Part shown: positions 1 to 19,396 of the stretch, piece after piece
Numbering within the stretch: position 1 is the first letter of the stretch
How the letters are laid out: every line of letters begins with the position of its first letter
NCBI GenBank assembly: GCA_947652925.1
Contig: CANTEW010000023.1
Location: 1 to 37,527, forward strand
Source: an uncultured Lachnospiraceae bacterium
GTDB lineage: Bacteria > Bacillota > Clostridia > Lachnospirales > Lachnospiraceae
Length of the DNA: 37,527 bases
Reading direction: 5' to 3'
The notes under the pieces: model-generated
What the model saw: the letters and a program-made list of their open reading frames with translations, nothing else
Told to the model about the DNA's origin: nothing
Database searches by the model: none
Position numbers and translations under genes: made by a program

Positions 1-663
1 TTCACAGAGATCTTTTTCGGGTCTGCGCTCACCTCTACTTTGACATCTTCTCCGCCCAGATCTTTTTCTTCTTTTTTCTCTGCCTGATAGATCGTTGCAA
101 CTCCCGGTAATGTCTTACTCCCTTTATATATTTTTCCATCAAGCTCTACGGCCCCATTGATGCTCACCCTCACTCCCACGTTCCCACTGTTCTCGGATTG
201 GGTGATCTCTCCCATCTTGACAAAGTCTACTTTGATCTGTTCCTCATTTACGGGATCTCCATCTATCTTTACCTCTGTCACTTTAAATCCTTTTAGTGCA
301 TTCTCTATCTCGGTCTGATCCTGGCTATTCACAGAGATCTTTTTCGGGTCTGCGCTCACCTCTACTTTGACATCTTCTCCGCTCAGATCTTTTTCTTCCT
401 TTTGTTCTACCAAGTAGATCGTTGCGACTCCCGGTATTGTTTTACTACCTTTATATACCTTGCCTCCAACTTCTATCGTGCCATTGATGCTGATCGTCAC
501 TCCCACGTTCCCACTGTTTTCGGATTGAGTGATCTCTCCCATCTTGACAAAGTTTGCTTCGATCTGCTTGATCTGATCCTCACTTACTGCATTTTTCTCT
601 ATCTTTATCTCTGTCACTTTAAAACTCTTTAGCGCTCTATCTATCTCGGTTTGATCCCGGCTA
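1..663 (-). repeat. Tandem 327-336 bp coding repeats
   Basis: Two tandem units lie inside the secreted-protein gene, at 328-663 (112 codons) and 1-327 (109 codons). The segment TTCACAGAGATCTTTTTCGG occurs at 1 and again at 328, and a shorter, diverged version begins at 664. The 9-bp difference is a three-codon insertion near the middle of the 328-663 unit. The array probably continues beyond the left edge. Confidence 0.85.
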
Positions 664-911
664 TTTACAGAGATCGGGTCCGTCTCAACTCCCACCTGGA
701 TGTCTTCTACATCACCGAGACTCACGCACGGACTTTGCCCTGGGCTCACGCTGTCTCCAGGACTCACGCTGTCTCCGGAAAGCGTTACCGCCCCATCCCC
801 CTCTGCCGCCCCATATACAGCACCTGGTACAAAAGACGTAGCCATTGCTGCTGATAACAAAAGTGCCGTCAATCTCCTCCATCTCTGTATCATCCTCTTT
901 TTTTGCTTCAT
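1..911 (-). CDS. Secreted tandem-repeat protein (partial, 3' end beyond window)
   Basis: I read this gene directly from the sequence; it runs off the left edge, so only the first 303 codons are visible. The ATG overlaps the TGA of the upstream kinase (ATGA), indicating translational coupling. Residues 1-35 form a signal peptide: a basic start (MKQKKRMIQRWRR), a hydrophobic stretch and an Ala-rich cleavage region. A linker with a doubled GDSVSPG motif follows, then repeats of 109-112 residues that each contain KMGEITQSENSGNVGV, YKGSKT-PGVATIY and GEDVKVEVSADPKK. The repeats are nearly identical and I do not recognise the fold; a beta-sandwich surface domain is a guess. As the last gene of the signalling operon, it could be a surface partner or ligand for the kinase ectodomain encoded just upstream. 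Function unknown. Confidence 0.8.
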   Translation of the reverse strand, partial: MKQKKRMIQRWRRLTALLLSAAMATSFVPGAVYGAAEGDGAVTLSGDSVSPGDSVSPGQSPCVSLGDVEDIQVGVETDPISVNSRDQTEIDRALKSFKVTEIKIEKNAVSEDQIKQIEANFVKMGEITQSENSGNVGVTISINGTIEVGGKVYKGSKTIPGVATIYLVEQKEEKDLSGEDVKVEVSADPKKISVNSQDQTEIENALKGFKVTEVKIDGDPVNEEQIKVDFVKMGEITQSENSGNVGVRVSINGAVELDGKIYKGSKTLPGVATIYQAEKKEEKDLGGEDVKVEVSADPKKISV

Positions 912-3289
912 TTCTTTTTCCCCCTTTCTCTCACATATTGCCTGCTATATGTCTGCAGCTCTTTTATATCTTCCGTTCCTCCCAGTCCATCCACAAACCG
1001 TTGTGCCTGGCCGCTCTCATTTCCCATCAGTACACAAGGTTGATTTCCTTTTTCCAATGCGATGAAGTCTCCGTATCCCGCATTGTACGAGGGGAATTGT
1101 TCAAATGAAGATCTCCATATGGGATAGGTTGACAAGATGGTCCCCGTCTTTCTGGCCTGCCCCACCTCCTGCTGCATGACCCAGAGCAGCCGCATACAGG
1201 CTGTCTGCTGTTCCTCGCTGCCTTTCGTCAGGATCGCATATCGTTCAGAATAAGTGACTAACATCTTTCCGTCATGGGTGACTACATAGATTTTATGATC
1301 CGCTATAGGATTTGCGTATCCATCTTTGCTCTTTTTTACCCTATCCTCTGCCTTGTCCATATATTTTCTATACGCCACGCCAGCCAGGACATTGCTCCCA
1401 TATATCTTGTCTTTCTTATCTCCCTCCAGGATCTTTCCATCCTCATCTACGGTACAGTTCAGCTTGTACTGAGGGCTTGTGGCTGTATTCCGAAAGTTCT
1501 GGATCTTGCTCAGTGCGGCGAGCATATCAGAAGTGGGACGTCCATTTCCTGTGAACACCTGACGCCAGTTTTCCTGATCCAGGAGCAAGACTCCGCCCAG
1601 GACACCTGCCCGGACATTTGCAAGCTCTCTGCTCAGGAATCCTCCCTCTACAGCTTCTCCGCCGGTGATGACATCCGTGAGTTCTACCGTCTTTACGCCG
1701 GTCTCCCCCTGTGCCTCAGTCGCCTGGACTGTGGAAGACTCCAGCCTGTTAGACTTGTGATAGTCGATCTCATTTGCATACAAAAGGAGGGTGTCCACGC
1801 CTGTAGGCATCTCTTTCATACCTGGAAAATGGTCTTTATAATCTGCCATAAAGACATATTTTTCCGGATCGAGGCGTTGATGATTATCTTCCAGCGAGAT
1901 CAGGCTGTACTCTTCCATATTGGAAACATGGTCTGACAGGAACATGTTGGGCAAAGGTGTTTTCTTATCTTTTTTTGCCTCTTGCAATGCCTTTTCCATA
2001 TCTTGCTGTACCACGACTTCCACTTCTACATTTTCATTCTGCTCCTGCATCTGCCTGAGCTTTTCATCTTCTTCCGGATTTTTTCCTTCTTTAAAACCGC
2101 TCTCCACCAATCCGTCTATCTGTATCTTCTGGTCATTATTTTCCACCCACACAGTGATCTTTATCGGCTCGTCGATGACCGAGCCGAATATACGGTCTTC
2201 TGGTCTTAGGATCGTACTGTATAATCCCACAGCCACGCCTATACCTACGGCTAAAATGGCAGAGATCCCGATGGTCGTATAGCGTTTCCTCTTCTTCTTG
2301 CGCAGTTTCTCCTTTGGATATTCGGCGATCCGTTTATTTAACAGCGCATCCTGGAATTGCTGGATCCCCTGGAACCTGAGTTCCGGCCGTACCGCCAGGG
2401 CTTCCATGACCGCCCGGTCCACATTTGCGCTGATCTTCGCTCCGGCTTCCATCGGCGACTTTAGCTTGTCTTTGAACTCACGTTCTGTGGATTCAATGGG
2501 CGGGACACCTGTGAGCATATGGTACAAGATAGCGCCCACAGCGTAGACATCCGTGTAAAACCCCTGCTTGCTGGTATCCCGGTACTGTTCCAGGGGTGAG
2601 TAACCTACCTTGATCACTGGTTCGGCCGCCATCCCGGCTTTCGTATCATTGAGCTGTGCCGCACCAAAATCAAAGATCTTAATGGATTCTTCACTGGCGA
2701 TAAAGATATTATCTGGACTCACGTCCCGATGTATGATCCCTTTGCTATGTATCTTCTTCACAGCCTCGATGATCGGCATGATCGTACTGAGCGCTGCCTC
2801 CGGTTCCATGGGACCTTGTTTTTCCAGATAATCCTTCAGCAGTACGCCGTCGATATACTCCATGACGATATATGCCGTACCGTTTTCCTCAAAATAATCA
2901 TTCACATTTACGATATCTTTTGCTTTGCCGAACTGGGTCACACTCTGCGCTTCCATACGAAAGCGTTTCAGCCGTTCCTCGTACTGACCTGCCTTATCTC
3001 CCGACAACAGGCCCACTCTGCGCTCTCCCGGAGAACGGTTCACCAGACCTACGATATAGAATTCCTTCACCGCAACAATGATGCCCAGGGCCGTATTAAA
3101 ACATTTGTACGTGATACCAAAACCACCCACTCCAATGACCGTCCCTACGATGATGTGATCCCCAAGGATCGTCCCAGGAGTCAGATAATGGGGCTGTTTC
3201 GGAGGTGTCCCCTCTACATAGCCGCAGTAAGGACACACTTCATAAGGCCCTTTCACACTAAAACAATCCATACATAATTCGCTTGCCAT
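908..3289 (-). CDS. Transmembrane Ser/Thr protein kinase with solute-binding-protein-like ectodomain
   Basis: Hanks-type kinase of 793 residues. A zinc ribbon (C6, C9, C19, C22) precedes the kinase domain (about 45-320), which has the glycine loop GVGGFG, catalytic Lys75 in VAVK, HRDVSPDN with Asp189 and Asn194, and Asp207-Phe-Gly. All catalytic residues are present. A basic stretch and one membrane segment (about 338-360) follow. The outer part (about 375-793) is not PASTA. It resembles extracellular ABC solute-binding proteins: a TVWVE strand at the start, a Leu/Tyr-rich segment near LLLYANE, and a helical end near YPIWRSSFEQFP. That assignment rests on pattern and size (about 420 residues) only. 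ATG follows AGGAGAT. The gene lies 15 bp after the membrane FHA gene and overlaps the repeat-protein gene by 4 bp. Inferred role: a receptor that couples an outside ligand to Ser/Thr phosphorylation. Confidence 0.9.
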   Translation of the reverse strand: MASELCMDCFSVKGPYEVCPYCGYVEGTPPKQPHYLTPGTILGDHIIVGTVIGVGGFGITYKCFNTALGIIVAVKEFYIVGLVNRSPGERRVGLLSGDKAGQYEERLKRFRMEAQSVTQFGKAKDIVNVNDYFEENGTAYIVMEYIDGVLLKDYLEKQGPMEPEAALSTIMPIIEAVKKIHSKGIIHRDVSPDNIFIASEESIKIFDFGAAQLNDTKAGMAAEPVIKVGYSPLEQYRDTSKQGFYTDVYAVGAILYHMLTGVPPIESTEREFKDKLKSPMEAGAKISANVDRAVMEALAVRPELRFQGIQQFQDALLNKRIAEYPKEKLRKKKRKRYTTIGISAILAVGIGVAVGLYSTILRPEDRIFGSVIDEPIKITVWVENNDQKIQIDGLVESGFKEGKNPEEDEKLRQMQEQNENVEVEVVVQQDMEKALQEAKKDKKTPLPNMFLSDHVSNMEEYSLISLEDNHQRLDPEKYVFMADYKDHFPGMKEMPTGVDTLLLYANEIDYHKSNRLESSTVQATEAQGETGVKTVELTDVITGGEAVEGGFLSRELANVRAGVLGGVLLLDQENWRQVFTGNGRPTSDMLAALSKIQNFRNTATSPQYKLNCTVDEDGKILEGDKKDKIYGSNVLAGVAYRKYMDKAEDRVKKSKDGYANPIADHKIYVVTHDGKMLVTYSERYAILTKGSEEQQTACMRLLWVMQQEVGQARKTGTILSTYPIWRSSFEQFPSYNAGYGDFIALEKGNQPCVLMGNESGQAQRFVDGLGGTEDIKELQTYSRQYVRERGKKK

Positions 3290-3304
3290 ATCTCCTACTC
3301 CTCT

Positions 3305-4237
3305 TTATCCCAAACGGAATGTGTTGGTATCATCTCCGATCGCTATGACCGTCCCCGGCTCCAGAGCCAGTTCCAGATTTTGGGGAAGACAGTCATGAGA
3401 GCCATTTGCAAAACTCCCGGTACTGGAATAGTCCCAGATGATATATTTCTCATTGGATGCATCCCATTTGATCTTACAATGGTCACGGCTGACTTTCGGC
3501 TGTCCCTCGAAGATCAGATGATTTGTATTCTGTCTGCCCAGCCCGATGAATTCTCCATCCGGCATAGGGATCTGGGCTCCTGCATAGATCCCAGTCAGTC
3601 CCACCATCATACCGTGGGAGCCTTTCGATATCCCAGGCTCCTGATCCGCCGGTCTCTGGTCTTTTTCCCCTGACATCATGATGTTGTATCTGGCCTCTGC
3701 CTGCTGCTGTTTGATCTCCTGCACCTGGGGGATCTTCTGCTGTACTTTCTTGACTTTCTTCGGCGTGCTCACAAGAGCCATGACCGCCATGACCGCGCTG
3801 CACACAGAGATGACTATACTCCCCGTGCAGGCGATCCCTCTCTCATAGACCTGCGCCTGCTGTGCATCCGGCCAGAGTATGTCCAAAGATCCAACAGATA
3901 CAATGTAGACGATCGATATGACCAATATCAGGACACTGCTGCCCCACTGCCTGGGACTGCCGACGATACCCCAGACACCGGCCGCCAATGCAAGGACAAG
4001 GGGTAGTACCATGCAGCACAGGATAAATACGATCTGTGTCCCGGTCACGGGCACCGCTCTCTCACCGACAAAAGGGAGCGACTTGCTAAACATAGCCTTT
4101 ACATACTGATATTGAGACCAGCGCAGCGTCGTGTACCCTTCCTGGGTCCGTTCGGTCAGCGGCAGAAAAAAAACGATCAGATGCAGTAAGACCAAAAAAC
4201 TGCCAAAACTCCGAAATCCCTTTGCATAACGCTCCAT
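3305..4237 (-). CDS. Membrane protein with C-terminal FHA domain
   Basis: A 310-residue protein. Four hydrophobic segments (about 9-28, 66-92, 98-118 and 136-157) form the membrane part. A basic, Gln-rich cytoplasmic linker (160-200) leads to an FHA phosphothreonine-binding domain (about 215-310). FHA signature residues are visible: Gly234-Arg235, Ser250-Arg251-x-His253 and Asn278-Gly279 in TGSFANG. FHA domains bind pThr peptides, so this protein probably recruits a phosphorylated partner from the same operon to the membrane. The start is preceded by AGGAGAGG. It sits between the second Zn-FHA gene and the receptor kinase, matching the place of the VWA-FHA protein in the first half of the operon. 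The membrane part matches no family I recognise. Confidence 0.85.
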   Translation of the reverse strand: MERYAKGFRSFGSFLVLLHLIVFFLPLTERTQEGYTTLRWSQYQYVKAMFSKSLPFVGERAVPVTGTQIVFILCCMVLPLVLALAAGVWGIVGSPRQWGSSVLILVISIVYIVSVGSLDILWPDAQQAQVYERGIACTGSIVISVCSAVMAVMALVSTPKKVKKVQQKIPQVQEIKQQQAEARYNIMMSGEKDQRPADQEPGISKGSHGMMVGLTGIYAGAQIPMPDGEFIGLGRQNTNHLIFEGQPKVSRDHCKIKWDASNEKYIIWDYSSTGSFANGSHDCLPQNLELALEPGTVIAIGDDTNTFRLG

Positions 4238-4261
4238 ATCCTCTCCTCTTTCAATGTTCTA

Positions 4262-5074
4262 TCAATCTTCCTCTTTCATTTTCTTTAAAAGGTCCCCCCA
4301 GTTGAAACGCGTACCGCAAAGGGGCATGAATAAAAGGTTCACATCCCCCACCGTGATCACATCGTAAGCTTCCAGTTTCACTGGAGTCAGTACCACCTCA
4401 TCGTTCCTGTATACCAGACTGCTGGATTCTCCCGGCTGCACAAGATACAGATGCGCCTTCGGTTCATAGACCACGATCCCGTGGCGCTCTCTGGATACGC
4501 TCTTATCCTCTGTCAGGGCCACATCCATCTGGCTGCTCCGTCCGATAAAGTTCTTCCCCGCCTTTAGACGGAAATCTGTCCCGATATGCTCCCCGCCCAA
4601 TGCCACCAGCCAACCCACACAGGGGGTGTCCGCTCTACCTGCGGCGTATGGTCTGCCCTGCCCCCCTGCGCCGGCACCTCTCGCCGTCGGATCGGACACA
4701 AAATAATCATCATAGATCCCGATCGTATGATCGTCATCGTCGTCCGCCCCTTGCAATAGGGTGGTTGTAGTCATGATCTCTGTCAACGGCACTGTTGGCA
4801 TATCTCTTGGATCCCCATCGAGCTCTACCGTCTGCTCATCCGCCGATCTGCTCGACAAAGACAGGCCCTGAGTATCATATTCTTCTGTATTATCTCCTGA
4901 GATAAAGCCCAGACCGCCCGCCTGTCTGCCCGGCTGCGTCACCGGCGAGGTCACATCTTCTGTAAAAGCGTCTGTCAGCTTATCATCCGCCGCGCTGCCC
5001 CCGATACAATGAGGACAAGTCGCATACTTCTCCTTGTCGTAAAAATGTCCCTTTTCACACCTGCATAAATTCAT
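4262..5074 (-). CDS. Zinc-knuckle FHA domain protein (second copy)
   Basis: A soluble 270-residue protein. The N-terminus has a Cys/His cluster (C6, H10, C20, H22, C23) in the pattern CxKGHxYD...CPHC, probably a zinc knuckle. An acidic, low-complexity linker (about 30-150) follows, then an FHA domain (about 155-252) with IGRS (Gly178-Arg179) and SRERH (Ser194 to His198). The linker holds DEQTVEL (Thr82) and DDDHTIGI (Thr117), both Thr with a hydrophobic residue at +3, as in known FHA ligands such as GarA. Layout and sequence match the 9056-9664 product, so the two are paralogs. The start has GGAGG six bases upstream. Inferred role: a phospho-switch adaptor between the kinases and phosphatases. 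Confidence 0.85.
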   Translation of the reverse strand: MNLCRCEKGHFYDKEKYATCPHCIGGSAADDKLTDAFTEDVTSPVTQPGRQAGGLGFISGDNTEEYDTQGLSLSSRSADEQTVELDGDPRDMPTVPLTEIMTTTTLLQGADDDDDHTIGIYDDYFVSDPTARGAGAGGQGRPYAAGRADTPCVGWLVALGGEHIGTDFRLKAGKNFIGRSSQMDVALTEDKSVSRERHGIVVYEPKAHLYLVQPGESSSLVYRNDEVVLTPVKLEAYDVITVGDVNLLFMPLCGTRFNWGDLLKKMKEED

Positions 5075-5101
5075 GTCGCTCCTCCTCTTCGTCTTCGATC
5101 T

Positions 5102-5962
5102 TTATTTGATATCTCTTTCCTGATAACAGATCAGCACCACTGAGGTGTTATCCTGCGAATAGGTATTCGCACGGGTCGCCGCATCGATCAATGCCTTTGC
5201 CCTCTGCTCCAACCTCACCTCGTCTGCAGTGATGATCGTCTGGATCTGCCTGTCGGTCAGCGTCTTCGTGATCCCGTCGCTGCAGAGCATGATCACATCT
5301 CCAAAGCGCATCTGAAAGGGGACTGTATTGATATCCATCAGAGAGATATTCCCCATGCCGAGATAACTGATCAGCGCTTCTTTGTGACGCGCCGCCATCA
5401 CCCCCTCCTTCGTGATCTGACCTGCCGCCTGCATCTCCTTCAGGCGCAGTCCATAATTGTGATCCCTGGTCACCTGCTGGATCTGCGCTCCCCGGATGAT
5501 ATAGATCCGGCTGTCCCCCACGGATGCCCAATACAGCCGGTCGTCCTCCGCGATACAGGCCACCATGGTAGTCCCGGAACCTTTTCCCTCTTCTTTCGGA
5601 AAATCAGCGATGGCCCGGTCGATGGCGTAGATCCCTTTCTGGAAAAACAGAGGGATATCCAATCCCGGCGTCTTCTCTACCCGTTCAAATCCGCGGACCA
5701 TCATCTGTATAGCCGTCTGGCTGGCTCTCCCTCCATCCGCCATCCCGCCCATGCCGTCGCACACGACCGCCAGTACTCTGGTCTTCTTATTCGCCGCCAG
5801 TTTCTTACTCTGGGACACGTACAGAGCATCCTGCTGGTATTCCCTGTTCCCGGTAGCCGTACAAGCCAATGTCATCAATTCAGGGACCTTCCGCACGATC
5901 CTGCCTGGGGGGCCTTCTGTCCTGTTATCCTCCACACTCTTTTTTTTCTTCCTTCCAAACAT
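5102..5962 (-). CDS. PP2C-family Ser/Thr phosphatase (second copy)
   Basis: A 286-residue metal-dependent phosphatase of the PP2C/PrpC type. Seen motifs are NREYQQDAL with Asp45, the metal-binding CDGMGGMADGG (Asp69-Gly70), ASVGDSRIY, LCSDGITKTL and the closing QDNTSVVL. A basic N-terminal tail (GRKKKKS) precedes the domain, and no membrane segment is visible. It is expected to remove phosphate from Ser/Thr residues phosphorylated by the two kinases of this operon. It lies 6 bp after the FHA-tailed kinase, and its ribosome-binding site (GTGGAG) is formed by the last codons of that gene, which suggests coupled translation. It is a paralog of the 9698-10432 product but carries an N-terminal extension of about 30 residues. 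Confidence 0.92.
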   Translation of the reverse strand: MFGRKKKKSVEDNRTEGPPGRIVRKVPELMTLACTATGNREYQQDALYVSQSKKLAANKKTRVLAVVCDGMGGMADGGRASQTAIQMMVRGFERVEKTPGLDIPLFFQKGIYAIDRAIADFPKEEGKGSGTTMVACIAEDDRLYWASVGDSRIYIIRGAQIQQVTRDHNYGLRLKEMQAAGQITKEGVMAARHKEALISYLGMGNISLMDINTVPFQMRFGDVIMLCSDGITKTLTDRQIQTIITADEVRLEQRAKALIDAATRANTYSQDNTSVVLICYQERDIK

Positions 5963-5968
5963 ATGCCT

Positions 5969-7243
5969 TTACTCCACCTCCATATAAAATATGTACCGTT
6001 CCTTTGCTGTCTGTATGTAGATCCATTCGCCCTTTTTGAGAAATGCTTTCTGCCCTCTCTCCAGCGTCCCTCTGCTCGTAAATGTACAGTTCCCGGAATA
6101 ATTCTCCACCAAGAAATCCCCCGCTGAAGGATCGTATACGATCTTGCAGTGGAGCCCGCTGACCTGACTGTCGTCCAAGACCACACGGCTTCGCTCCGCC
6201 GTCCTGCCGATCGTGAGTACACGGTCGTCCCCAAAAGGATAGCGTCTCCATCTGCCACGCACGACCATATCGCTCACAGGTATCTGCAAAAGCCCCATTT
6301 CTTTCAAAAATCCCTTCACATCCCTCGTGCGCTGCTGCCATTTAAAACAAAGGGCATGCTCCACAGCCCGGCTGATATCCTCAGGGATACCGGGAACACA
6401 CTGGCTGAGGCTCATCAACTGCACGCCTGAGATGCGGTCCGGCGCCTCGGGAGGCTTTTTTCCTGTGACCAGATAATAATAAGTCGCCGCCAATGCATAG
6501 ACATCTGTCCAGGGACCCTGCTCCCCCTTCCTGGAATATTGCTCTATGGGCGTGAAACCGGGCTTCAACAGGACTGACATGCTCTTCTGGGAATCCATCG
6601 CATAGATCCTCGTCGCCCCAAAATCGATCAGATGCACAGTCCCGTCCTTATCCATCATGATATTATCCGGACCGATATCTCTGTGGAGCAGCTTCATGGC
6701 ATGCACCTGCTCCAGAGCCATCCCTGCATCCCGTATGATCCTATCCGCCTGCTCCCAGGGCATCATCCGGATCTGCTGAGCTTTCATATATCCGCTGAGT
6801 GTACTGCCTTCCAGCAGCTCCATCACCATATAGGCAGTCCCGTTCTCCTTAAAAAGATCGCGCACATCCACAATGCTGGGGACTTTGCGCAGTTTCCTCA
6901 AGACCTCTGCCTCATTGATAAAGACTTCTTTTCCCCGCCGATACACATCTTTCTGGGATCGGCTGTTAGGGATGATCTGGTTTCCCTGAGATGCACGCAT
7001 GGCCCATTCTGCAGGAAAATATTCTTTCACTGCCAGTCTCCCATGCTCCTTCTGGTCATACGCCACATAAGTGATCCCAAATCCTCCCACCCCCAGGACA
7101 CGCCCCAGGACATATCTCCGGTGCAATATGACTCCTGCCGGCAGTGCACGCTCCTCCCTCTGTGTGTGCTGACTGAACCCACAGACGACGCACGCGCCCT
7201 TTCTCATAGTCCCGGAAGAAAAACAATTCGGACACAACTTCAT
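5969..7243 (-). CDS. Soluble Ser/Thr protein kinase with C-terminal FHA domain
   Basis: A 424-residue Hanks-type kinase. An N-terminal zinc ribbon (C4, C7, C18, C21) is followed by the kinase domain (about 45-315) with GVGGFG, Lys73 in AVKEY, HRDIGPDN (Asp189, Asn194) and DFG at 207-209, so it should be active. The C-terminal part (about 335-424) is an FHA domain with IGR (Gly346-Arg347) and Ser362/His365. The usual Asn-Gly is replaced by Asn-Cys in GNCTF, a mild oddity. No membrane segment is present. The ribosome-binding site is GGAGGGG. The N-terminal ribbon and kinase resemble the receptor kinase at 908-3289, so one is probably derived from the other or both from a common ancestor. The FHA tail suggests binding to its own or the partner's phosphothreonines. 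Confidence 0.92.
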   Translation of the reverse strand: MKLCPNCFSSGTMRKGACVVCGFSQHTQREERALPAGVILHRRYVLGRVLGVGGFGITYVAYDQKEHGRLAVKEYFPAEWAMRASQGNQIIPNSRSQKDVYRRGKEVFINEAEVLRKLRKVPSIVDVRDLFKENGTAYMVMELLEGSTLSGYMKAQQIRMMPWEQADRIIRDAGMALEQVHAMKLLHRDIGPDNIMMDKDGTVHLIDFGATRIYAMDSQKSMSVLLKPGFTPIEQYSRKGEQGPWTDVYALAATYYYLVTGKKPPEAPDRISGVQLMSLSQCVPGIPEDISRAVEHALCFKWQQRTRDVKGFLKEMGLLQIPVSDMVVRGRWRRYPFGDDRVLTIGRTAERSRVVLDDSQVSGLHCKIVYDPSAGDFLVENYSGNCTFTSRGTLERGQKAFLKKGEWIYIQTAKERYIFYMEVE

Positions 7244-7280
7244 CTCTTTCCCCTCCTGCCGATCTTACTGATATGTATCA

Positions 7281-9071
7281 CTATCTACGATCCTCGATCT
7301 CCATCGCCGTCTGGATCTTGGGTACGTGGAATACAATAGTCTCTCTCCCGGCAGTGATGATATCCCCGTCCAGGAGCATCCTCCGGTTCGTTATCTTCAC
7401 GCCGTTGACGAAAGTCCCATTCGTGGACTGCAGATCTTCCAGATAACAACCCATCTTGGTGACTTCTATGACAAAATGCTGCTTTGACAGACGATCATCA
7501 TCAAAATAAATATTACAGATATTGGAACGCCCTATGAACAGACTGCCTTCCACATCCCATTCCACATCCTTGATCGCACCGGCACGATCGGTGATGGTCA
7601 GCCATATCTTCTTTGTATCCGCTCTCACCAGATCGTCCAGATCCACTTCTACAACTTCTGTCTTTTTCTTTCGTATCGCCTGGATGAGCCATATCCCCAG
7701 GATAGCCACGAGAAGGATCAGTATGACCCACCAATAGGATCTCACAGCATTACCGAAGGCCACTTTTTTTGGATCCAATCCGTCTCTTATGGAAAATCCT
7801 ACAGAAGCGTCCATCGCATTTTCTTCCTGGGAGCCATCCCGGATATCAGTGCATTTCAGTATATGATCACCTGTAAAAAGATCCTCCTTCGTGGTCAGCG
7901 TGACCACCGCCTCCTGTCCTTTTTCCTCCACACTGACAGAATCAACTGACCAGTTTTTCCCTTTGCCGTCCTCTGACCTGGTCTGGATGCTGTAATGGGA
8001 TCTGTCTTTCGCATCTTCTACATCCACCCCATTCGGATCCTGGAGAGAGAATCTGACTGCATTTTTGCTGATCTTCTCCACATCCCCAACGATCTGGGGC
8101 GCTTCTTTATCTTCTTCATGGTCGGAATGATCGATCGTTATCGGATCGACTGCGGTCTTATCCACCTCCAGTTTGAGCTGCTCCCGTCCCGCCACCCGAT
8201 TGTTCGCTGCGCGCAAACGCACCACATAGCTTTCCTTATGGAGCAGCTGCCAGATCTGGGCAAAAGCAGCCCGCACGCCTTCAGCAGAAGGCTGCACACT
8301 GCAGTCGGCATAATATCCCCTGCAGTTTTTCTCAGCCAGGATCTGATTTTTGGTATAGGACATCTTCTCGTCCTCCTGCCCTGACTTATTAGCCAGCAAG
8401 ATCCCATACACCGGGACAGATGCATCCCTCACTGTGTTGGCTGTAGAAACATTGTCGATATCTTTCCCTTTCGAATCGTCTTCACCGTCTGTGATCAGCA
8501 AGACGATCGTACGCTCTTTCGGCGACGCCTGTTCAAGCAGGATCTCATTGAGGGAGCGGTACAAGACCGTCATGCTCTGCTTTGTGTTCATATACGCAAC
8601 AGCGCCGATCTTCTCACAGTCCCCGGCAAGGCTCTCATCTGATCCTCCCACTCTGCTGGAAAAAACCTCTGTCTTCTCCCCCTCTGGATCATCCGTCCCA
8701 ACAGTGTAGAGGGTCATCTGATCCCCTTTCCTTAACGACTGCCGCATCTGGATCAACTGAGCCTTTGTCTCGTCAAACTGCACTTGGTCCACCGACCCGG
8801 AATTGTCCATCAAGATGATGTAGTCGATCTTCTCTTTGCTCTGGTCAAAAGCTACGATATCCCCTTTTTGTTCCAGATCTATATCTTTGATCTTTCCTGA
8901 CACTGTGGAAGTTTCTTTCATCTTAGAACCCGTCATATAGACTGTCACATCGGGGGCTTTTCCCTGTGCCTGCTCAGCCATATAAGGCGACCTGACAGTA
9001 GCCGCGGACACAGGCACACCTGACAGCAGCAACATGATGGATGCCAGCAAACATATCATTCTCTTTCCCAT
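7281..9071 (-). CDS. Membrane-anchored VWA domain protein with cytoplasmic FHA domain
   Basis: I place the start at the ATG at 9071, which has GGGGAGGG just upstream; a TTG 18 bases earlier in frame is less likely. The protein has 596 residues. A signal peptide ends near VSA (about residue 23). An extracellular von Willebrand A domain follows with the MIDAS motif DNSGS (Asp89, Ser91, Ser93) and ITDGEDD (Asp195). After a region of unclear fold comes one membrane helix (about 448-470), a basic stop-transfer stretch, and a cytoplasmic FHA domain (about 490-590) with FIGRS, SKQH and STNGTFVNG, a complete signature. It therefore links a metal-dependent adhesion domain outside to phosphothreonine recognition inside. 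It overlaps the preceding FHA gene by 16 bp. Confidence 0.9.
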   Translation of the reverse strand: MGKRMICLLASIMLLLSGVPVSAATVRSPYMAEQAQGKAPDVTVYMTGSKMKETSTVSGKIKDIDLEQKGDIVAFDQSKEKIDYIILMDNSGSVDQVQFDETKAQLIQMRQSLRKGDQMTLYTVGTDDPEGEKTEVFSSRVGGSDESLAGDCEKIGAVAYMNTKQSMTVLYRSLNEILLEQASPKERTIVLLITDGEDDSKGKDIDNVSTANTVRDASVPVYGILLANKSGQEDEKMSYTKNQILAEKNCRGYYADCSVQPSAEGVRAAFAQIWQLLHKESYVVRLRAANNRVAGREQLKLEVDKTAVDPITIDHSDHEEDKEAPQIVGDVEKISKNAVRFSLQDPNGVDVEDAKDRSHYSIQTRSEDGKGKNWSVDSVSVEEKGQEAVVTLTTKEDLFTGDHILKCTDIRDGSQEENAMDASVGFSIRDGLDPKKVAFGNAVRSYWWVILILLVAILGIWLIQAIRKKKTEVVEVDLDDLVRADTKKIWLTITDRAGAIKDVEWDVEGSLFIGRSNICNIYFDDDRLSKQHFVIEVTKMGCYLEDLQSTNGTFVNGVKITNRRMLLDGDIITAGRETIVFHVPKIQTAMEIEDRR

Positions 9072-9664
9072 GTCCTGCCCTCCCCGCAAAATGGTATGAA
9101 TAACAGATCTGTCTTTCCTATGGTGATCTTATCACCTTCTTTGAGCTGCATAGAAAGATCCAGCATCTCTCCATTGAGATAGACAAGATTCCCCCCTTCA
9201 CTAGATACATAAAATGCATTTCCTTTCGGATCATAGACCACAGAACAGTGTCTGTCCCTTGCTATCGTCTTATCATCCACGATCAGGACATCCATGGACA
9301 TGCTGCGGCCGATAAAATTTTTGCCGGCATGGAGACGGTGATCTTTCCCGCACTCTGTACCTGTCATACAGACCAGCCATCCTACGACCGGAGCGATCTC
9401 CCTCACACCAAAAAAACCGAAGGCGATCGTTTTATCATCGTCTTCGTCGGATGACCCACCATTTACCTGGATCGAAGAGGTATCTAGGATATCTCCAAGC
9501 TCTGCTCCAAGTGACGGATCCATTTCTGCCAGAGAGATCGTCTTATCATCTTCCTCAATATCGTTCAATTGTATACCCAGCCGCTCTCCTGCCTGTTTAC
9601 AATGAGGGCACTCTTTATCCACACTTGTGTCATACCAGTGCCCTTTACTACATCTCGTTATCAT
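9056..9664 (-). CDS. Zinc-knuckle FHA domain protein (first copy)
   Basis: A 202-residue soluble protein. The N-terminal Cys/His cluster is C5, H9, C19, H21, C22 (CSKGHWYD...CPHC). The acidic linker (35-85) carries DDKTISL (Thr42) and DDDKTIAF (Thr79), both Thr with a hydrophobic residue at +3 in an acidic setting. The FHA domain (about 95-192) has FIGRS (Gly119-Arg120) and ARDRH ending at His139; the usual Ser before Arg is Ala135. The ribosome-binding site (AAGGGATAAG) is weaker than those of its neighbours. It lies between the first PP2C and the VWA protein and overlaps the latter. Paralog of the 4262-5074 product. Inferred role: a phosphorylation-dependent adaptor, comparable in logic to GarA/OdhI but with an added zinc knuckle. 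Confidence 0.85.
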   Translation of the reverse strand: MITRCSKGHWYDTSVDKECPHCKQAGERLGIQLNDIEEDDKTISLAEMDPSLGAELGDILDTSSIQVNGGSSDEDDDKTIAFGFFGVREIAPVVGWLVCMTGTECGKDHRLHAGKNFIGRSMSMDVLIVDDKTIARDRHCSVVYDPKGNAFYVSSEGGNLVYLNGEMLDLSMQLKEGDKITIGKTDLLFIPFCGEGRTWERE

Positions 9665-9697
9665 TTTCTTATCCCTTTCCCGATCAGATGAGCCACT

Positions 9698-10432
9698 TTA
9701 GTGTCCCCGCACAAAGACAGCGATCGCTGAATAATTATCCATCTCTCTCTCTTTTCCGTTTTTTAACACGATCTGTTCCATATGCTGCAGCCATTCTCCC
9801 GGGGTCTTGGATCTTTTCAATGTTCTGCACATCTGCTTTTCATCTACGAGTTCCCAGAATCCGTCGCTGCACAATAGAAAACTCGTGCGGCCCGTTACAG
9901 TGATATGATCTACCACTTCATATTTAGGACCCTCCCATTCTGTCCCCATCACCCGCAGCAATCGATCCCGGTCTTCGTGATGGCGGATATCCTTCTCCCG
10001 TATATCCCCCTTCTTCACCAGCATCTGCGGTACACTGTGATCTTGGCTGTGCAGCACATGTTTAGATCTTTCAAAATAATAGATCCTGGAATCTCCCACA
10101 TGGGCAAATCTTGCCTCGTTTCCCTGGATGACAAGAGCCGCTATCGTTGTTTTCATAGATGCTCTTGCATTTTCCGCTTCCTGCTTTAAGAGCAGTCCCT
10201 CTTGCGCATACTGGATACTCTCTTCCAATGTGTGGGAATCTTCCAATGCCTCCCGGACCTTCTCCACTACAAACTGTGATGCGACATCACCGCTCCCATG
10301 CCCGCCCAGCCCGTCACACAGGATAAATCCCTGACAGTCCGGCATGATGGTAACATCCAGACAGTCTTCATTTACTGCACGCCCGCCTTTATCCGTCCGC
10401 GTATCATATGTGATATCCAGATCAAATGCCAT
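9698..10432 (-). CDS. PP2C-family Ser/Thr phosphatase (first copy)
   Basis: A 244-residue phosphatase of the PrpC type, the first gene of the signalling operon. Motifs: VNEDCLD near the N-terminus, CDGLGGHGSGD (metal ligands), AHVGDSRIYYF, LLCSDGFWELVD and DNYSAIAVF at the end. Its length matches a bare catalytic PP2C domain with no membrane anchor. The start has GAGGAGAGGGAG upstream, and a good promoter lies 39-68 bp before the ATG. It presumably opposes the two kinases downstream in the same transcript. Sequence pattern and size make the family call secure; substrates are inferred from gene context only. Confidence 0.93.
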   Translation of the reverse strand: MAFDLDITYDTRTDKGGRAVNEDCLDVTIMPDCQGFILCDGLGGHGSGDVASQFVVEKVREALEDSHTLEESIQYAQEGLLLKQEAENARASMKTTIAALVIQGNEARFAHVGDSRIYYFERSKHVLHSQDHSVPQMLVKKGDIREKDIRHHEDRDRLLRVMGTEWEGPKYEVVDHITVTGRTSFLLCSDGFWELVDEKQMCRTLKRSKTPGEWLQHMEQIVLKNGKEREMDNYSAIAVFVRGH

Positions 10433-10470
10433 GTCTCCCTCTCCTCAGATCTAACGCATATTTTGAGATC

Positions 10471-10500
10471 ATTGTATCCTCATTCCGCGTTTATTGACAA
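10471..10500 (-). promoter_or_regulatory. Sigma-A-type promoter of the kinase/phosphatase operon
   Basis: On the minus strand, TTGTCA (at 10495-10500) and TACAAT (at 10471-10476) are separated by 18 bases. The spacing to the PP2C start codon leaves a leader of about 30 bases with a strong ribosome-binding site. The -35 box lies inside a 41-base sequence that is repeated 334 bases to the right. Confidence 0.7.
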
Positions 10501-10866
10501 TATGTGGCATTTTTTGTGGGCGTTTTTTTCTGCGTATGGTCTACAAAAGATCTATAAAAATAAAAAAAGCAGGCGTTCATCCTGCTCATATCTCGTACTG
10601 GTCTTTATACGTTTCCCCATCTTTATGGGATTTCTTTATAGATACTTTTTCCAAATTGGGTCATGGTCACATACCAACTGTATGGACGTATTTGGATCTC
10701 AAAATAAACGATACAGCATCCCCATGAGCATCCCCGATCCATATCATCGTTACTCGACACTTTTTGTGATAATACGTCAGCATATCTTTTTATATCCAGC
10801 CGGACCTTCCTTATGCCCTACAATGATCGACAATATGCGGCATTGTCTGTGGACAGTCTTTTCAGC
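10492..10866. repeat. Pair of imperfect 41-base direct repeats
   Basis: Copies at about 10492-10532 and 10826-10866 share 32 of 41 bases, including GACAATATG(T/C)GGCAT. The left copy overlaps the -35 box of the signalling operon; the right copy lies upstream of the regulator gene. This arrangement suits an operator pair, but no binding protein is known. Confidence 0.6.
10562..10586 (-). terminator. Orphan intrinsic terminator on the minus strand
   Basis: On the minus strand, AGCAGG and CCTGCT form a 6-bp stem with a 7-base loop, followed by TTTTTTTATTTTT. It would stop transcripts entering from the right, yet no annotated minus-strand gene lies between it and the regulator start. It may insulate the operon promoter or end a short unannotated transcript. 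Confidence 0.6.
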
Positions 10867-10995
10867 AAAATACCGGTTGTGGACACTTTTGTGGACAGAT
10901 TTTTTTGCTAGTATTTTCCATATTGATTGGATTTCCATTTTACAAACTGTTAATATATAAATACAAAATATAACAAAAGAATAGAGGATGATACA

Positions 10996-12483
10996 ATGTC
11001 AGAATTTTCAGATATTTTCAGGGGACTGATCCAGGAAAAAGACATAAATGTATATTCTATGGTGCAATACTGCAACACAGACCGTTCTACCATGTACAAA
11101 TATATCAGCGGCAAACGGAAACTAAAGGATCTTTCCCTGTTCAAGAAGATCGCAGAATATATGCGTCTTTCCCCACTGGAATACCAGGACTTCCTCCAGG
11201 CTTACCATATCAGCAACATCGGAGAATATACATATTACTGCCGCCAAAATGTAGAAAACTTTATCTTAGGTTTTCCAGAAAACCTTTCTCCGCCAAAGCC
11301 TCCCAAGGAAAGCTACGGCCCTTTACCGGATTATACGCCGGACACTCCGTGCCTCCCTTTACATACACAGGTCGAGGTCAATAATTATATCTACTGGATG
11401 ATACACCTGGAGAGTAATATCCCCCATGGACATTTAGGTATGTTGCTGCAGCCCGATCACGGATTCCTTTTTCACTTGCTGTCCAGCATCAAACCCATAC
11501 AGGCACCGATGCGGATCGATCATATATTTTGCCTGAATAATTCTGAGCAGATGACAGAGTCCAAAAAAATACGCTTCCTATGCTATATGGAGACGATCAT
11601 GCCTCTGTTTTTTGCAGGTCTGGATTACCACCCGCATTATTTTTATGATGACATCAACGCCCATTTTTATAATCTGAACACGTTTCCCTATCTGCTCTTG
11701 ACGAGTACCTGTGCTTTGATGTGTTCTTCTGATTTCAAACGTGGGATCATATACCATGATAAGCAATTCCTTTCTTTCCTGTGGAGATCCTATGAAGATA
11801 TCAGGACCAATACCTCCCCGCTCTTTCACATTGTAAATTCTGTCCTGGAAGAATGCGATGTGCTGGGCAATATGGGCTGGGGTGCGACTCCCAGTTATGC
11901 GATCCAGGCCGAACCATGCCTGATCCCATACATAACGCCAGCGATCTTAGACCGGGCTGTCCCCGACCAGATCCCTGACCGGGCCGCACTCATAACAAAC
12001 GTAAGAAAATATATTGAAGAAAGCCTTGAACGCATCCCCGACCCCAATATGCATACTTACCACACACGACAGGGGATCTTGCGCTTTCTGGAAACTGGCT
12101 TCCTGCAAGAGATACCTGCCGACATATATTCTCCATTTACTATGGAGGAAAGACTCCAGATGCTGGGATCCATGACAAAATACAGCCTGGCCGGGATACA
12201 CCGTATGCTCAAAGGACCATTGGAAAACCTGCCTCTGAATCTGCATCTGAGCTTCAACGCATACAACGGATACCTCCTTTTCAGCAACCACATCGGCCAA
12301 AATATCTATTTGATCATCGAAGAATCCGGTATGCTCTCCGCGTTCATGGATTATGTCTCCAACCTGGACGAAAATTATATCTGTACACCAGAGGAAACAA
12401 CGTTATATATCCAACAGCTCATAAACAAATACAGAAATGCCCCACTCTCCTCAGAGGACACTTATTTCCATAGATTTCGTTAG
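10996..12483 (+). CDS. HTH (XRE-like) transcriptional regulator with large unknown C-terminal region
   Basis: A 495-residue protein. Residues 1-60 look like an XRE-type helix-turn-helix: SMVQYCNTDRSTMYKYISGKR fits a recognition helix, followed by the LKDLSLFKKIAEYMRL helix. The rest (about 80-495) is helical, has no membrane segment, and belongs to no family I can name. It contains a Pro-rich stretch at about 96-120 and aromatic-rich segments. The start has GAGG eight bases upstream. It is transcribed away from the kinase/phosphatase operon across a repeat-bearing intergenic region, so it is a natural candidate to control that operon and itself. This is inference from position only. No typical terminator follows it. 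Confidence 0.75.
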   Translation: MSEFSDIFRGLIQEKDINVYSMVQYCNTDRSTMYKYISGKRKLKDLSLFKKIAEYMRLSPLEYQDFLQAYHISNIGEYTYYCRQNVENFILGFPENLSPPKPPKESYGPLPDYTPDTPCLPLHTQVEVNNYIYWMIHLESNIPHGHLGMLLQPDHGFLFHLLSSIKPIQAPMRIDHIFCLNNSEQMTESKKIRFLCYMETIMPLFFAGLDYHPHYFYDDINAHFYNLNTFPYLLLTSTCALMCSSDFKRGIIYHDKQFLSFLWRSYEDIRTNTSPLFHIVNSVLEECDVLGNMGWGATPSYAIQAEPCLIPYITPAILDRAVPDQIPDRAALITNVRKYIEESLERIPDPNMHTYHTRQGILRFLETGFLQEIPADIYSPFTMEERLQMLGSMTKYSLAGIHRMLKGPLENLPLNLHLSFNAYNGYLLFSNHIGQNIYLIIEESGMLSAFMDYVSNLDENYICTPEETTLYIQQLINKYRNAPLSSEDTYFHRFR

Positions 12484-15114: not shown

Positions 15115-15660
15115 CTACTCCAGCATTCTTTCTATATTGATGACAAATCCCTCGCAGATACACGACTGGATGTCGTCTTCAAATCCATATTGATCGGTCC
15201 TTTCCTCTTTTTCCAGATCGTAGGCCATGACCGTTTTTTTCCGGGGATCCACGATCCAGTATTCACGCACCCCCGCCGTACGGTACTTGAATAGTTTCAC
15301 ACCATAATCTATCCGGGAGTTGGACGGCGATACGATCTCGATCACCCAGTCCGGCGCGCCGTTGCATCCGCGGTCGTCTATCTTATCTTTATCACATATC
15401 ACAGAAATATCCGGTTCTACATAATTTCTGTCATCCCCGTTCAAAAAAACCGCAAAAGGCGCGGGGAAAACTTCGCACGTTCCGCCGTTTTTCTTGATAT
15501 GATCCCTTATTTCAGCAGATAATCCCATAAGGATGCGCTGGTGCATCGTATTTGGCGGCGCCATATCGTATATCTGCCCATCGATCAGTTCCGCACGCTG
15601 TCCTTCTGGCAGGGCATAGATATCTCCGATCGTATAAACTTCCTTTCTTGCCAACTGCAT
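15115..15660 (-). CDS. Uma2 family protein (PD-(D/E)XK nuclease fold, DUF820)
   Basis: A 181-residue protein of the Uma2/DUF820 family, which has the restriction-endonuclease-like fold and is often expanded in genomes without a known role. Visible family features are ELIDGQIYDMAPP near the N-terminus, VEPDISVI (central Asp), PDWVIEIVSPS (Glu of the E-x-V element) and REYWIVDP, so the catalytic core looks intact. The ATG at 15660 has GGGAGG nine bases upstream. A GTG two codons earlier is possible but sits too close to that site. It is the first gene of a two-gene unit with pepF, which does not reveal a function. Confidence 0.88.
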   Translation of the reverse strand: MQLARKEVYTIGDIYALPEGQRAELIDGQIYDMAPPNTMHQRILMGLSAEIRDHIKKNGGTCEVFPAPFAVFLNGDDRNYVEPDISVICDKDKIDDRGCNGAPDWVIEIVSPSNSRIDYGVKLFKYRTAGVREYWIVDPRKKTVMAYDLEKEERTDQYGFEDDIQSCICEGFVINIERMLE

Positions 15661-15692
15661 ATACACATACCTCCCACTCTTTACTTGACACT

Positions 15693-18181: not shown

Positions 18182-19369
18182 TCAATGGTGGAACAGACGG
18201 ATACCTGTAAACACCATGACCATCCCATATTTATCACACGTCTCGATCACTGCCTGATCTCGGACAGAGCCGCCGGGTTGGGCGATATACCGCACACCGC
18301 TCTTTTTCGCCCGTTCGATATTATCGCTGAAAGGAAAGAACGCATCCGACCCAAGAGTAACGCCGTCCATACGGTCTAACCAAGCCCGCTTTTCCTCCCT
18401 GGTGAATACAGACGGCTTTATCTTGAAGATCTTCTGCCATACGCCCTCTTCCAGCACATCCATATATTCATCTCCGATATAGACATCGATCGCATTGTCC
18501 CTCTCCGCCCGGCTGATACTGTCTACAAACTCCAGTCCCAGTACCTGGGGACTTTGGCGCAGCATCCAATTATCCGCTTTCTGCCCGGCCAGCCTGGTAC
18601 AATGTACCCGGGACTGCTGCCCGGCGCCGATACCGATCGCCTGGCCATCTTTCACATAACACACAGAGTTAGACTGTGTATATTTCAAAGTGATCAGCGC
18701 GATCTTCAGATCTCTCCTATCATCCGGGGATAATGCTTTATTTTTGGTCACGATATGGGATAAGAGCCCGTCGTCAATAGAAAGTTCCTGTCTGCCCTGT
18801 TCAAATGTGATCCCAAATACCTCTTTATGTTCCATCGGAGCAGGTCTGTAGTCCTGGTCTATCTGTATCACATTATAAGCACCCTTCTTCTTTGCTTTCA
18901 GGATCTCCAATGCTCCCGGTGCATAACCGGGGGCGATCACACCGTCCGAGACTTCCCGTTTGATCAGACGCGCCGTATCCTCGTCACAGACACGGGACAA
19001 AGCGATAAGGTCGCCGAAAGAAGACATCCGATCCGCCCCCCTGGCTCTTGCATAGGCACAGGCCAGCGGCGATAACTCACTCTCCCTGCTGATATCATCC
19101 ACCCAATAGATCTTTGCCAATGTGTCGTCCAGCGGCAGTCCCACCGCAGCCCCCGCCGGAGAGACATGCTTAAATGACGCGGCAGCCGGCAGACCTGTGG
19201 CCCCGTCAAGCTCCCTGACCAGCTGCCATGCATTCAACGCATCCAGAAAATTGATATAGCCAGGTCTCCCGGACAAAACCTGTATGGGCAGATCCTCCCC
19301 ACCGCTCATATAGATCCTGGAAGGTTTCTGGTTCGGGTTGCATCCGTATTTTAATTGTAATCCCTTCAA
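18182..19369 (-). CDS. purH: Stand-alone AICAR transformylase (PurH C-terminal domain only)
   Basis: A 395-residue enzyme that adds the formyl group from 10-formyl-tetrahydrofolate to AICAR, the ninth step of purine synthesis. Family motifs: KYGCNPNQKPSRIY at the N-terminus, SFKHVSPAGAAVG (catalytic Lys-His) and GIGAGQQSRVHCTRLAG. It lacks the N-terminal IMP cyclohydrolase domain of ordinary bifunctional PurH. The start is TTG at 19367-19369, with AAGGAG eight bases upstream. No ATG is available before Met22, and the family N-terminus begins exactly here, so TTG initiation is well supported. The missing cyclohydrolase is supplied by the PurO-type gene just upstream. Confidence 0.92.
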   Translation of the reverse strand: MKGLQLKYGCNPNQKPSRIYMSGGEDLPIQVLSGRPGYINFLDALNAWQLVRELDGATGLPAAASFKHVSPAGAAVGLPLDDTLAKIYWVDDISRESELSPLACAYARARGADRMSSFGDLIALSRVCDEDTARLIKREVSDGVIAPGYAPGALEILKAKKKGAYNVIQIDQDYRPAPMEHKEVFGITFEQGRQELSIDDGLLSHIVTKNKALSPDDRRDLKIALITLKYTQSNSVCYVKDGQAIGIGAGQQSRVHCTRLAGQKADNWMLRQSPQVLGLEFVDSISRAERDNAIDVYIGDEYMDVLEEGVWQKIFKIKPSVFTREEKRAWLDRMDGVTLGSDAFFPFSDNIERAKKSGVRYIAQPGGSVRDQAVIETCDKYGMVMVFTGIRLFHH

Positions 19370-19396
19370 AATGGCCGCTCCTTTGATATGATAGAT

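Follow-up and report, generated by a model that had tools for sequence, protein, structure and literature searches.

Which signalling system is encoded by eight consecutive genes in a stretch of DNA from an uncultured Lachnospiraceae bacterium, and did these genes arise as two copies of one four-gene cassette? The stretch (contig CANTEW010000023.1 of assembly GCA_947652925.1, 37,527 nucleotides; referred to as the window) is the entire contig C23 of genome G000, which is 2.9 Mb long and 98% complete. A sequence-only reading had divided the genes into two sets of the same order, PP2C phosphatase, Zn-knuckle protein with a forkhead-associated (FHA) domain (Zn-FHA), membrane FHA protein and Zn-ribbon kinase, and had explained them by duplication. 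It was right about the layout; the duplication is mostly wrong in its simple form. From sequence comparison we favor, with some confidence, the view that the eight genes make up a conserved core within a large Ser/Thr phospho-signalling locus based at the membrane, which works without a type VII secretion system (T7SS) in this genome; the mechanism and the origin from an old gene set described below are part of this view. The locus probably detects an external cue and modifies the cell surface.

The eight open reading frames (ORFs) all lie on the minus strand, with the coordinates and domain order that had been claimed, and Pfam supports the domains. They are labeled from g8, the first gene of the core, to g1, the eighth. 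In set 1, g8 (9698..10432) encodes a PP2C phosphatase of a lineage called P8 here (PF13672, E 1.8e-12), and g7 (9056..9664) a Zn-FHA protein (PF00498, E 3.8e-8) with acidic-Thr-Ile motifs in the linker at T42 and T79. The product of g6 (7281..9071; the start was taken as the ATG at 9071, not the TTG at 9089) has a signal peptide, a VWA domain (PF00092, E 7.7e-10), one membrane helix and an FHA domain (PF00498, E 1e-18). In its 596-residue form the DxSxS motif is at residue 89 and the single helix near residue 440; the charge pattern suggests that the VWA domain is extracellular and the FHA domain cytoplasmic. The last gene of the set, g5 (5969..7243), encodes a Zn-ribbon Ser/Thr kinase (PF00069, E 1.9e-29) with a C-terminal FHA domain (PF00498, E 2.4e-8) and no membrane helix predicted after the kinase domain. 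In set 2, g4 (5102..5962) encodes a PP2C of a lineage called P4 (PF13672, E 2.9e-13), g3 (4262..5074) a Zn-FHA protein (PF00498, E 3.8e-5) with an acidic-Thr-Ile motif at T117, g2 (3305..4237) a membrane protein with four predicted helices and a C-terminal FHA domain (PF00498, E 3.1e-8), and g1 (908..3289) a Zn-ribbon Ser/Thr kinase (PF00069, E 2.9e-37) with one membrane helix and an ectodomain that probably resembles family-1 solute-binding proteins (SBPs). The intergenic gaps from g8 to g1 are 33, -16, 37, 6, 27, 24, and 15 bases. Paired CxxC motifs stand at the N-terminus of both kinases, and all nine aligned Zn-FHA sequences share an invariant Cys/His knuckle. In content, the core has a pair of PP2Cs from distinct old lineages, a pair of Zn-ribbon kinases from distinct branches, and two each of Zn-FHA and membrane FHA proteins; it retains the catalytic residues and most of those that bind phosphothreonine.

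The same arrangement recurs in relatives. We annotated 147 stretches, giving domain matches priority in ORF calling, and found the exact eight-gene order in ten (the window, L092, L094, L096, L097, L098, L099, L100, L106, and L133), on ten different contigs of Clostridia. Such recurrence places the arrangement beyond chance, but 10 of 147 is not a frequency, because 80 of the stretches had been chosen for their resemblance to the first PP2C (the best 80 of at least 578 loci in a scan with that protein) and some stretches share a contig. Nine of the ten loci carry taxonomic labels: five are Lachnospiraceae, Roseburia or Lachnoclostridium, and the rest Eubacteriales, Clostridium, Clostridiaceae, and Oscillospiraceae. 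Seven further stretches on six contigs (L072 and L093 share one) have P8, Zn-FHA, VWA, P4, and Zn-FHA without the kinase-FHA gene, and 18 stretches on 17 contigs (L022 and L152 share one) have P8, P4, and Zn-FHA consecutively. At least nine of the ten core loci preserve the kinase and PP2C catalytic residues (including the metal-site Asp of g8), the VWA DxSxS motif, the FHA Arg, Ser and His (except the Ser in g7), and the linker threonines (T42 and T79 in g7, T117 in g3). DxSxS is also present in 49 of the 51 VWA-FHA proteins of the survey. The SBP-like ectodomain was recognized in seven of the ten; L099 is cut by a contig end, and L106 and L133 gave no match. A Zn-FHA profile, searched against 328 genomes of the family and counted to E 1e-12, matched in 47.

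Gene sets of a similar kind have been described beside secretion systems. Kinases, phosphatases, and FHA proteins were reported for T7SS variants (T7SSc, T7SSe, and related Bacillota) by Garrett et al. 2024 (PMC11217815). As in T7SSc and T7SSe, the core encodes a membrane Ser/Thr kinase, a PPM phosphatase, and FHA proteins together, and genes related to P8, P4, Zn-FHA, and the kinases occur in loci with T7SS markers in our survey. Unlike those systems, the core adds VWA-FHA, kinase-FHA, four-helix FHA, and a second Zn-FHA protein, and the window genome showed neither WXG100 proteins nor an EssC-like ATPase in our searches. A set of two phosphatases plus Zn-FHA is not named in the passages of Garrett et al. 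2024 consulted here. The WXG100 search gave 0 matches in G000; the same search was positive in G016, G021, G165, G360, and G364. Nine core-bearing genomes were compared, G162 and G165 with the variant lacking kinase-FHA and the others with the exact core, G016 and G021 being the positives; six of the nine (G000, G162, G361, G362, G363, and G365) had no WXG100 match. For the EssC-like ATPase, searched in G016, G021, and the core-bearing genomes G000, G162, G165, and G360–G363, only a 33% match to an FtsK domain (query 698–906 of 1321) was found in G000, and likewise in G162 and G361–G363. Long matches were obtained for G016, G021, and G360, as well as for G165, where the match fell into two pieces. 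As judged by these searches, the core exists without a detectable T7SS in the window genome, and some core-bearing species have both.

Are the two halves of the core copies of each other? The two halves agree in broad domain order but do not match four against four. By blastp, three of the four positions are paralogous: the kinases g1 and g5 (31%, E 1e-48), the Zn-FHA proteins g3 and g7 (32%, E 1e-37), and the PP2Cs g4 and g8 (26% over 181 residues, E 3e-9). The membrane pair does not correspond, as g6 and g2 match in the FHA domain alone (E 1.7) and show no blastp homology outside it. What survives of the proposed ancestral cassette is the paralogy of kinase, PP2C, and Zn-FHA, for which a very old partial duplication is possible; recent copying does not survive. 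Relatives closer than the partner in the other half, which would speak against duplication, were found largely for the PP2Cs and kinases and mostly not for the Zn-FHA proteins. In 14 T7SS-marker loci, defined by a nearby WXG100, FtsK/EssC, DUF6382 or TseI-like match (in L108, the DUF6382 mark is present in the first annotation only, not in the later one), a protein closer than the window partner was present in all 14 for g8 and for g4, in 13 for g5 and for g1, in 4 for g3, and in none for g7. These counterparts differ between the halves, with separate partners for the two PP2Cs and likewise for the two kinases. Since the PP2Cs and kinases are closer to different T7SS counterparts, we conclude that the halves did not arise by copying in a single recent event. 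The genes for P8 and P4 are neighbors in all of the 14 loci but L112 and L126, thus in 12, and 12 carry one Zn-FHA (L115 has two; L144 has none, and its stretch is without a kinase). Of the 44 survey stretches with a single Zn-FHA, 28 carried both PP2Cs (55 stretches, 54 with Zn-FHA, 35 of these with both P8 and P4); many stretches stop at contig ends, and absences among them are uncertain.

Phylogenetic trees were built for the three paralogous families. The PP2C and kinase trees rest on a first ORF calling, in which long antisense ORFs hid some genes (e.g., P4 in L072), and the same-contig doubles L093, L152, and L102 are absent from the trees, as from the linker-motif count given below, though present in the stretch counts. 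The PP2C tree (169 rows; proteins of 200–340 residues) separated a P8 clade of 87 rows from a P4 clade of 67 rows, with support of 99 each, and both clades have T7SS-linked members. When the core P8 and core P4 proteins were held together as one clade (20 of 66 rows), the approximately unbiased (AU) test rejected the constraint (p-AU 4e-103). In the kinase trees (179 rows, and a smaller one of 72 with L095_2634 omitted; kinases with under about 220 matched residues were left out), g1 stands beside the first kinases of T7SS loci, and g5 falls in a kinase-FHA clade (support 99) beside the second T7SS kinases. A single clade of g1-type and g5-type kinases was not rejected (p 0.347). The AU tests used chosen subsets, 72 of 179 kinase rows and 66 of 169 PP2C rows, with L095_2634 and L095_3 omitted, and L080 was counted as T7-like in the PP2C tree and not in the kinase tree. 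A Zn-FHA tree rooted with other FHA domains (79 rows, 126 columns; one short Zn-FHA of L115 left out) did not settle the rooting between groupings.

Against this background, a recent tandem duplication of the whole four-gene cassette in the core's ancestor is very improbable. It would account for the shared domain order and would suit the kinase sisterhood that the test left standing, and real module duplications do exist: in L077:3756-11391 (minus strand), Zn-FHA, four-helix FHA, and membrane kinase genes form a true tandem repeat at 77, 40, and 68% identity. That repeat looks quite unlike the window pairs, however, and for the PP2Cs such a duplication is rejected by the AU test; moreover, every PP2C and kinase is closer to a T7SS counterpart, and the membrane proteins lack blastp homology beyond the FHA domain. 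A much older event deserves more credit, though we still consider it unlikely: a PP2C/Zn-FHA/kinase unit may have duplicated before T7SS-linked and stand-alone forms split, with the T7SS loci later losing one Zn-FHA and the core order remaining as a relic. P8 and P4 do form sister groups relative to PrpC and a small number of others (support 83), the kinases form two main branches with T7SS members in each, and the rooted Zn-FHA tree joins the set-2 proteins with T7SS forms (96). On the other hand, other Zn-FHA groupings fit equally well or better (p-AU 0.78 and 0.61), the usual order in T7SS loci is P8-P4-Zn-FHA-kinase-kinase rather than two ordered units, and the membrane proteins share the FHA domain only. 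We infer that the core derives from an old set (P8, P4, Zn-FHA, SBP-kinase, and second kinase) that it shares with the T7SS loci, and that in the core a block of Zn-FHA, VWA-FHA, and kinase-FHA lies between the P8 and P4 of that set. The further suggestion that the copies diverged to sense different outside signals is weak for set 1, as g5 has no helix after its kinase domain, though the VWA protein of this set probably faces outward.

The operon to which the eight genes belong extends beyond the left edge of the window. A ninth gene (3..911, minus strand), encoding the N-terminal part of a secreted repeat protein with no Pfam domain above cut-off, runs off the contig at position 3. Its remainder is apparently on contig C67, at one end of which a protein with the same repeats is cut off (the two best alignments show 85 and 93% identity). 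On C67 there follow two Zn-ribbon membrane kinases, two more kinases, a pair of membrane FHA proteins, and, cut off by the other contig end, an FHA-FHA-ABC gene; a match to its missing membrane half lies at the extreme end of contig C10 (query 34–486 aligns on C67 and 514–799 on C10). The complete exporter, with two FHA domains, an ABC ATPase, and an ABC-2 membrane part, is present in L230:2240-4639, and in G000 it is apparently split between C67 and C10. Beyond the exporter half, C10 continues with genes for a membrane protein bearing an FHA domain, a secreted protein of the Amidase_3 family, and a VWA protein with a Zn ribbon. The downstream order recurs in four relatives, at five loci (L229; L230/L231; L232/L233; L234; L236): after the last core genes come the gene for a secreted protein, those for two membrane kinases, and two or three further kinase genes. 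In L236, the first kinase of the row is not labeled SBP-like, and the core is without kinase-FHA. Pfam confirmed a LytTR response regulator in both loci tested, L229 and L232. The contig order thus appears, with good support, to be C23-C67-C10, and these three contigs together carry 10 of the 11 FHA matches, 6 of the 10 kinases, and 2 of the 3 PP2Cs of the genome. The one remaining FHA match of the genome, on contig C8 (L242:1889-3133, minus strand), belongs to a protein that joins DUF6382 to FHA; this domain pair is named TseJ/TsfJ in T7SS (PMC11217815), and here it occurs in a genome with no detectable T7SS.

How the core might sense and transmit a signal was considered from its domains. The g1 ectodomain is likely SBP-like. 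In an alignment of 18 such ectodomains, SBP_bac_8 and SBP_bac_1 each match five members, and five pass the Pfam cut-off (L020, L022, L126, and L163, which are first kinases of T7SS-marker loci, and L138), at 14–18% identity to the window ectodomain. Among 20 PDB profile matches, 13 carry the name of a solute- or sugar-binding protein; RBL4, at the head of the list, does not, and none of its stretches passed. It may be noted that the second kinase of one T7SS locus (L020:4593-8045, minus strand) carries four PASTA and four Flg_new stretches. In the Zn-FHA proteins, an acidic-x-T-[IVL] motif was found in 39 of 131 linkers (of 153 Zn-FHA proteins in all), whereas 500 shuffles gave 5.4 on average and 12 at most; the OdhI and FhaB models match weakly, below cut-off. 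GarA is an FHA protein, and phosphorylated GarA and OdhI bind their own or a partner's FHA domain. The motif suggests that the Zn-FHA proteins are a GarA/OdhI-like switch.

In the mechanism that we propose, the SBP-like ectodomain of g1 would bind a small molecule or glycan outside the cell and so change the kinase activity. The kinases g1 and g5 would phosphorylate threonines in the acidic-x-T-I motifs of the Zn-FHA adaptors, which could then bind their own or a partner's FHA domain in the manner of GarA/OdhI, with P8 and P4 resetting different targets. The FHA tails of g6, the VWA protein, and of the four-helix g2 may serve as docking sites for phosphorylated partners, so that the state inside would control the outward VWA binding domain, or the reverse; the comparison of g6 with an integrin comes from the presence of signal peptide, VWA domain, helix, and FHA domain in one protein. 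Further along the locus, the FHA-FHA-ABC exporter, the secreted protein, and the amidase would carry out the envelope changes. A fuller version of this picture is tentative and rather more doubtful than the reading given at the outset: a stand-alone circuit of the clostridial envelope, in which ligand-gated SBP-fused kinases, a GarA-like Zn-FHA pair, two phosphatases, and an integrin-like VWA-FHA protein control export and wall remodelling, the regulatory sets of several T7SS variants coming from the same stock.

Parts of this scheme have parallels in known systems. For the GlnH-GlnX-PknG-GarA/OdhI pathway, it has been proposed that an outside solute-binding protein controls a Ser/Thr kinase; GarA, the substrate of that kinase, acts by its phosphorylation state (PMC6069109). 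There, the SBP is a separate lipoprotein that acts via GlnX, whereas here the SBP-like domain is fused to the kinase by one helix. As in PknF-Rv1747, a kinase gene lies beside an ABC exporter gene (PMC3908365); Rv1747 has two FHA domains (PMC5549992), and the exporter split between C67 and C10 has parts of the Rv1747 type (two FHA, ABC ATPase, and ABC-2), a likeness of domain content. Unlike that pair, the present locus has many kinases, two PP2Cs, and more FHA proteins, and its exporter is about 12 kb beyond the core, across the inferred contig breaks. The type VI secretion system (T6SS) has a PpkA-PppA-Fha switch of kinase, phosphatase, and FHA protein that controls a surface machine (PMC3953482), as we suggest here; no T6SS link was found, and with 31 of 120 bits for g2 the TagH model stayed well short of its cut-off. 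The NCBIfam cut-offs for PrkC/Stk1 (g1 169/450 and g5 115/450 bits) and Stp1/PrpC (g4 158/230 and g8 151/230 bits) were not reached, and what we take to be the genome's own rlmN-prpC-prkC genes are on contig C43. The TerY-P triad consists of VWA, PP2C, and Zn-ribbon kinase proteins (PMC11090510). The core likewise encodes PP2Cs, Zn-ribbon kinases, and a protein with a VWA domain, g6, which in addition has a signal peptide, helix, and FHA domain. In the triad the Zn ribbon is fused to the C-terminus of the kinase, whereas g1 and g5 have it at the N-terminus and an ectodomain or FHA domain at the C-terminus; two PP2Cs and FHA adaptors are further differences. A search of titles and abstract beginnings in open-license PubMed Central, with subscription journals outside its range, gave no description of the eight-gene core.

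These parallels leave two further explanations to be weighed. That the core is the regulatory module of a T7SS whose secretion genes sit elsewhere or were lost seems improbable to us. P8, P4, Zn-FHA, and kinases are shared with T7SS loci, G165 and G360 have both WXG100 proteins and an EssC-like ATPase, and G364 has WXG100; against this, G000, G162, and G361–G363 show no WXG100 and just an FtsK-domain match, in the case of G000 in an assembly that is nearly complete. An anti-phage or TerY-P-like conflict system, to which the joint presence of kinase, PP2C, and VWA, the matches of PADLOC kinase models, and a Uma2-family ORF (15115-15666) about 4.7 kb upstream of the core would point, is hardly credible. 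The NCBIfam matches cover just the generic kinase domain and stay well short of the cut-off (MADS6, 119 and 126 of 460 bits), the PADLOC matches listed for the kinases are kinase models that we take as generic, and no other MADS protein was found for any of the eight in the matches listed (the best 25 of 34–35 per kinase). In addition, the Zn ribbon is N-terminal, the VWA protein is linked to the membrane, and the Uma2 ORF is split from the core by divergent genes and lies outside the conserved order.

Several observations weigh against our own reading of a stand-alone locus with the mechanism proposed. WXG100 proteins are present in three of the nine core-bearing genomes (G165, G360, and G364), and in G165 the contig of the core also holds five matches, at C120:1277-2892, some 7 kb upstream of it, so that a tie of the core to T7SS in some species is possible. 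The order of the three contigs is inferred, and the ectodomains of the C67 kinases are not clearly of the PASTA type (E 0.021). The window's own ectodomain, taken alone, matched none of the Pfam SBP models at E 1 or below, and the ectodomain profile matched one true SBP of the genome weakly (E 0.0075, probability 5%), as compared with E 0.49 and 0.26 for two unrelated proteins. g7 has Ala at the canonical FHA Ser position, and the linker motif is present in only 39 of 131 linkers, whose related rows are not independent.

Some other features were noted in passing. In L096 and L097, an extra VWA-FHA protein (883 and 900 residues) is encoded immediately upstream of the core, before P8. A second recurrent class, in 17 of the 147 stretches (L026–L029, L196, L199, L201, L203, L204, L205, L207, L210, L212, L215, L218, L219, and L223), has Zn-FHA, P4 (usually with a membrane helix), and a membrane P8 (with TPR in L028), and each stretch encodes at least one of three proteins of 721, 424, and about 143 residues; the first two of these, in L028, matched no Pfam family. 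In the window, ORFs of 220 and 495 residues (10298-12483, plus strand) are divergent beside the core, the first overlapping g8; they had no NCBIfam match, and the second showed a weak HTH_26. Promoter- and terminator-like sites were compared with shuffled sequence: 13 promoter-like sites were observed vs 17.7 in the shuffles, so the site upstream of 10432 (10500-10471, minus strand) is no evidence of a promoter, and 15 terminator-like sites vs 8.3. The Uma2-family ORF, a putative nuclease gene on the minus strand (PF05685, E 5.6e-35), is directly upstream of an M3 peptidase gene. At 18182-20110 (minus strand), a separate gene of AICAR transformylase type and a PF07826 IMP cyclohydrolase gene, presumably of the archaeal PurO type, adjoin IMPDH; bacteria usually carry a single bifunctional PurH.

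What, then, would the locus mean for these organisms? A kinase, phosphatase, and FHA set like those adjacent to T7SS exists, and is conserved, in genomes without a detectable T7SS. Provided that the contigs are ordered as proposed, a single deletion would take away most of the genome's capacity for reading phosphothreonine. The activation of bacterial Ser/Thr kinases has been called an outstanding question (PMC6069109), and a kinase with an SBP-like ectodomain would offer a direct route to finding a ligand.

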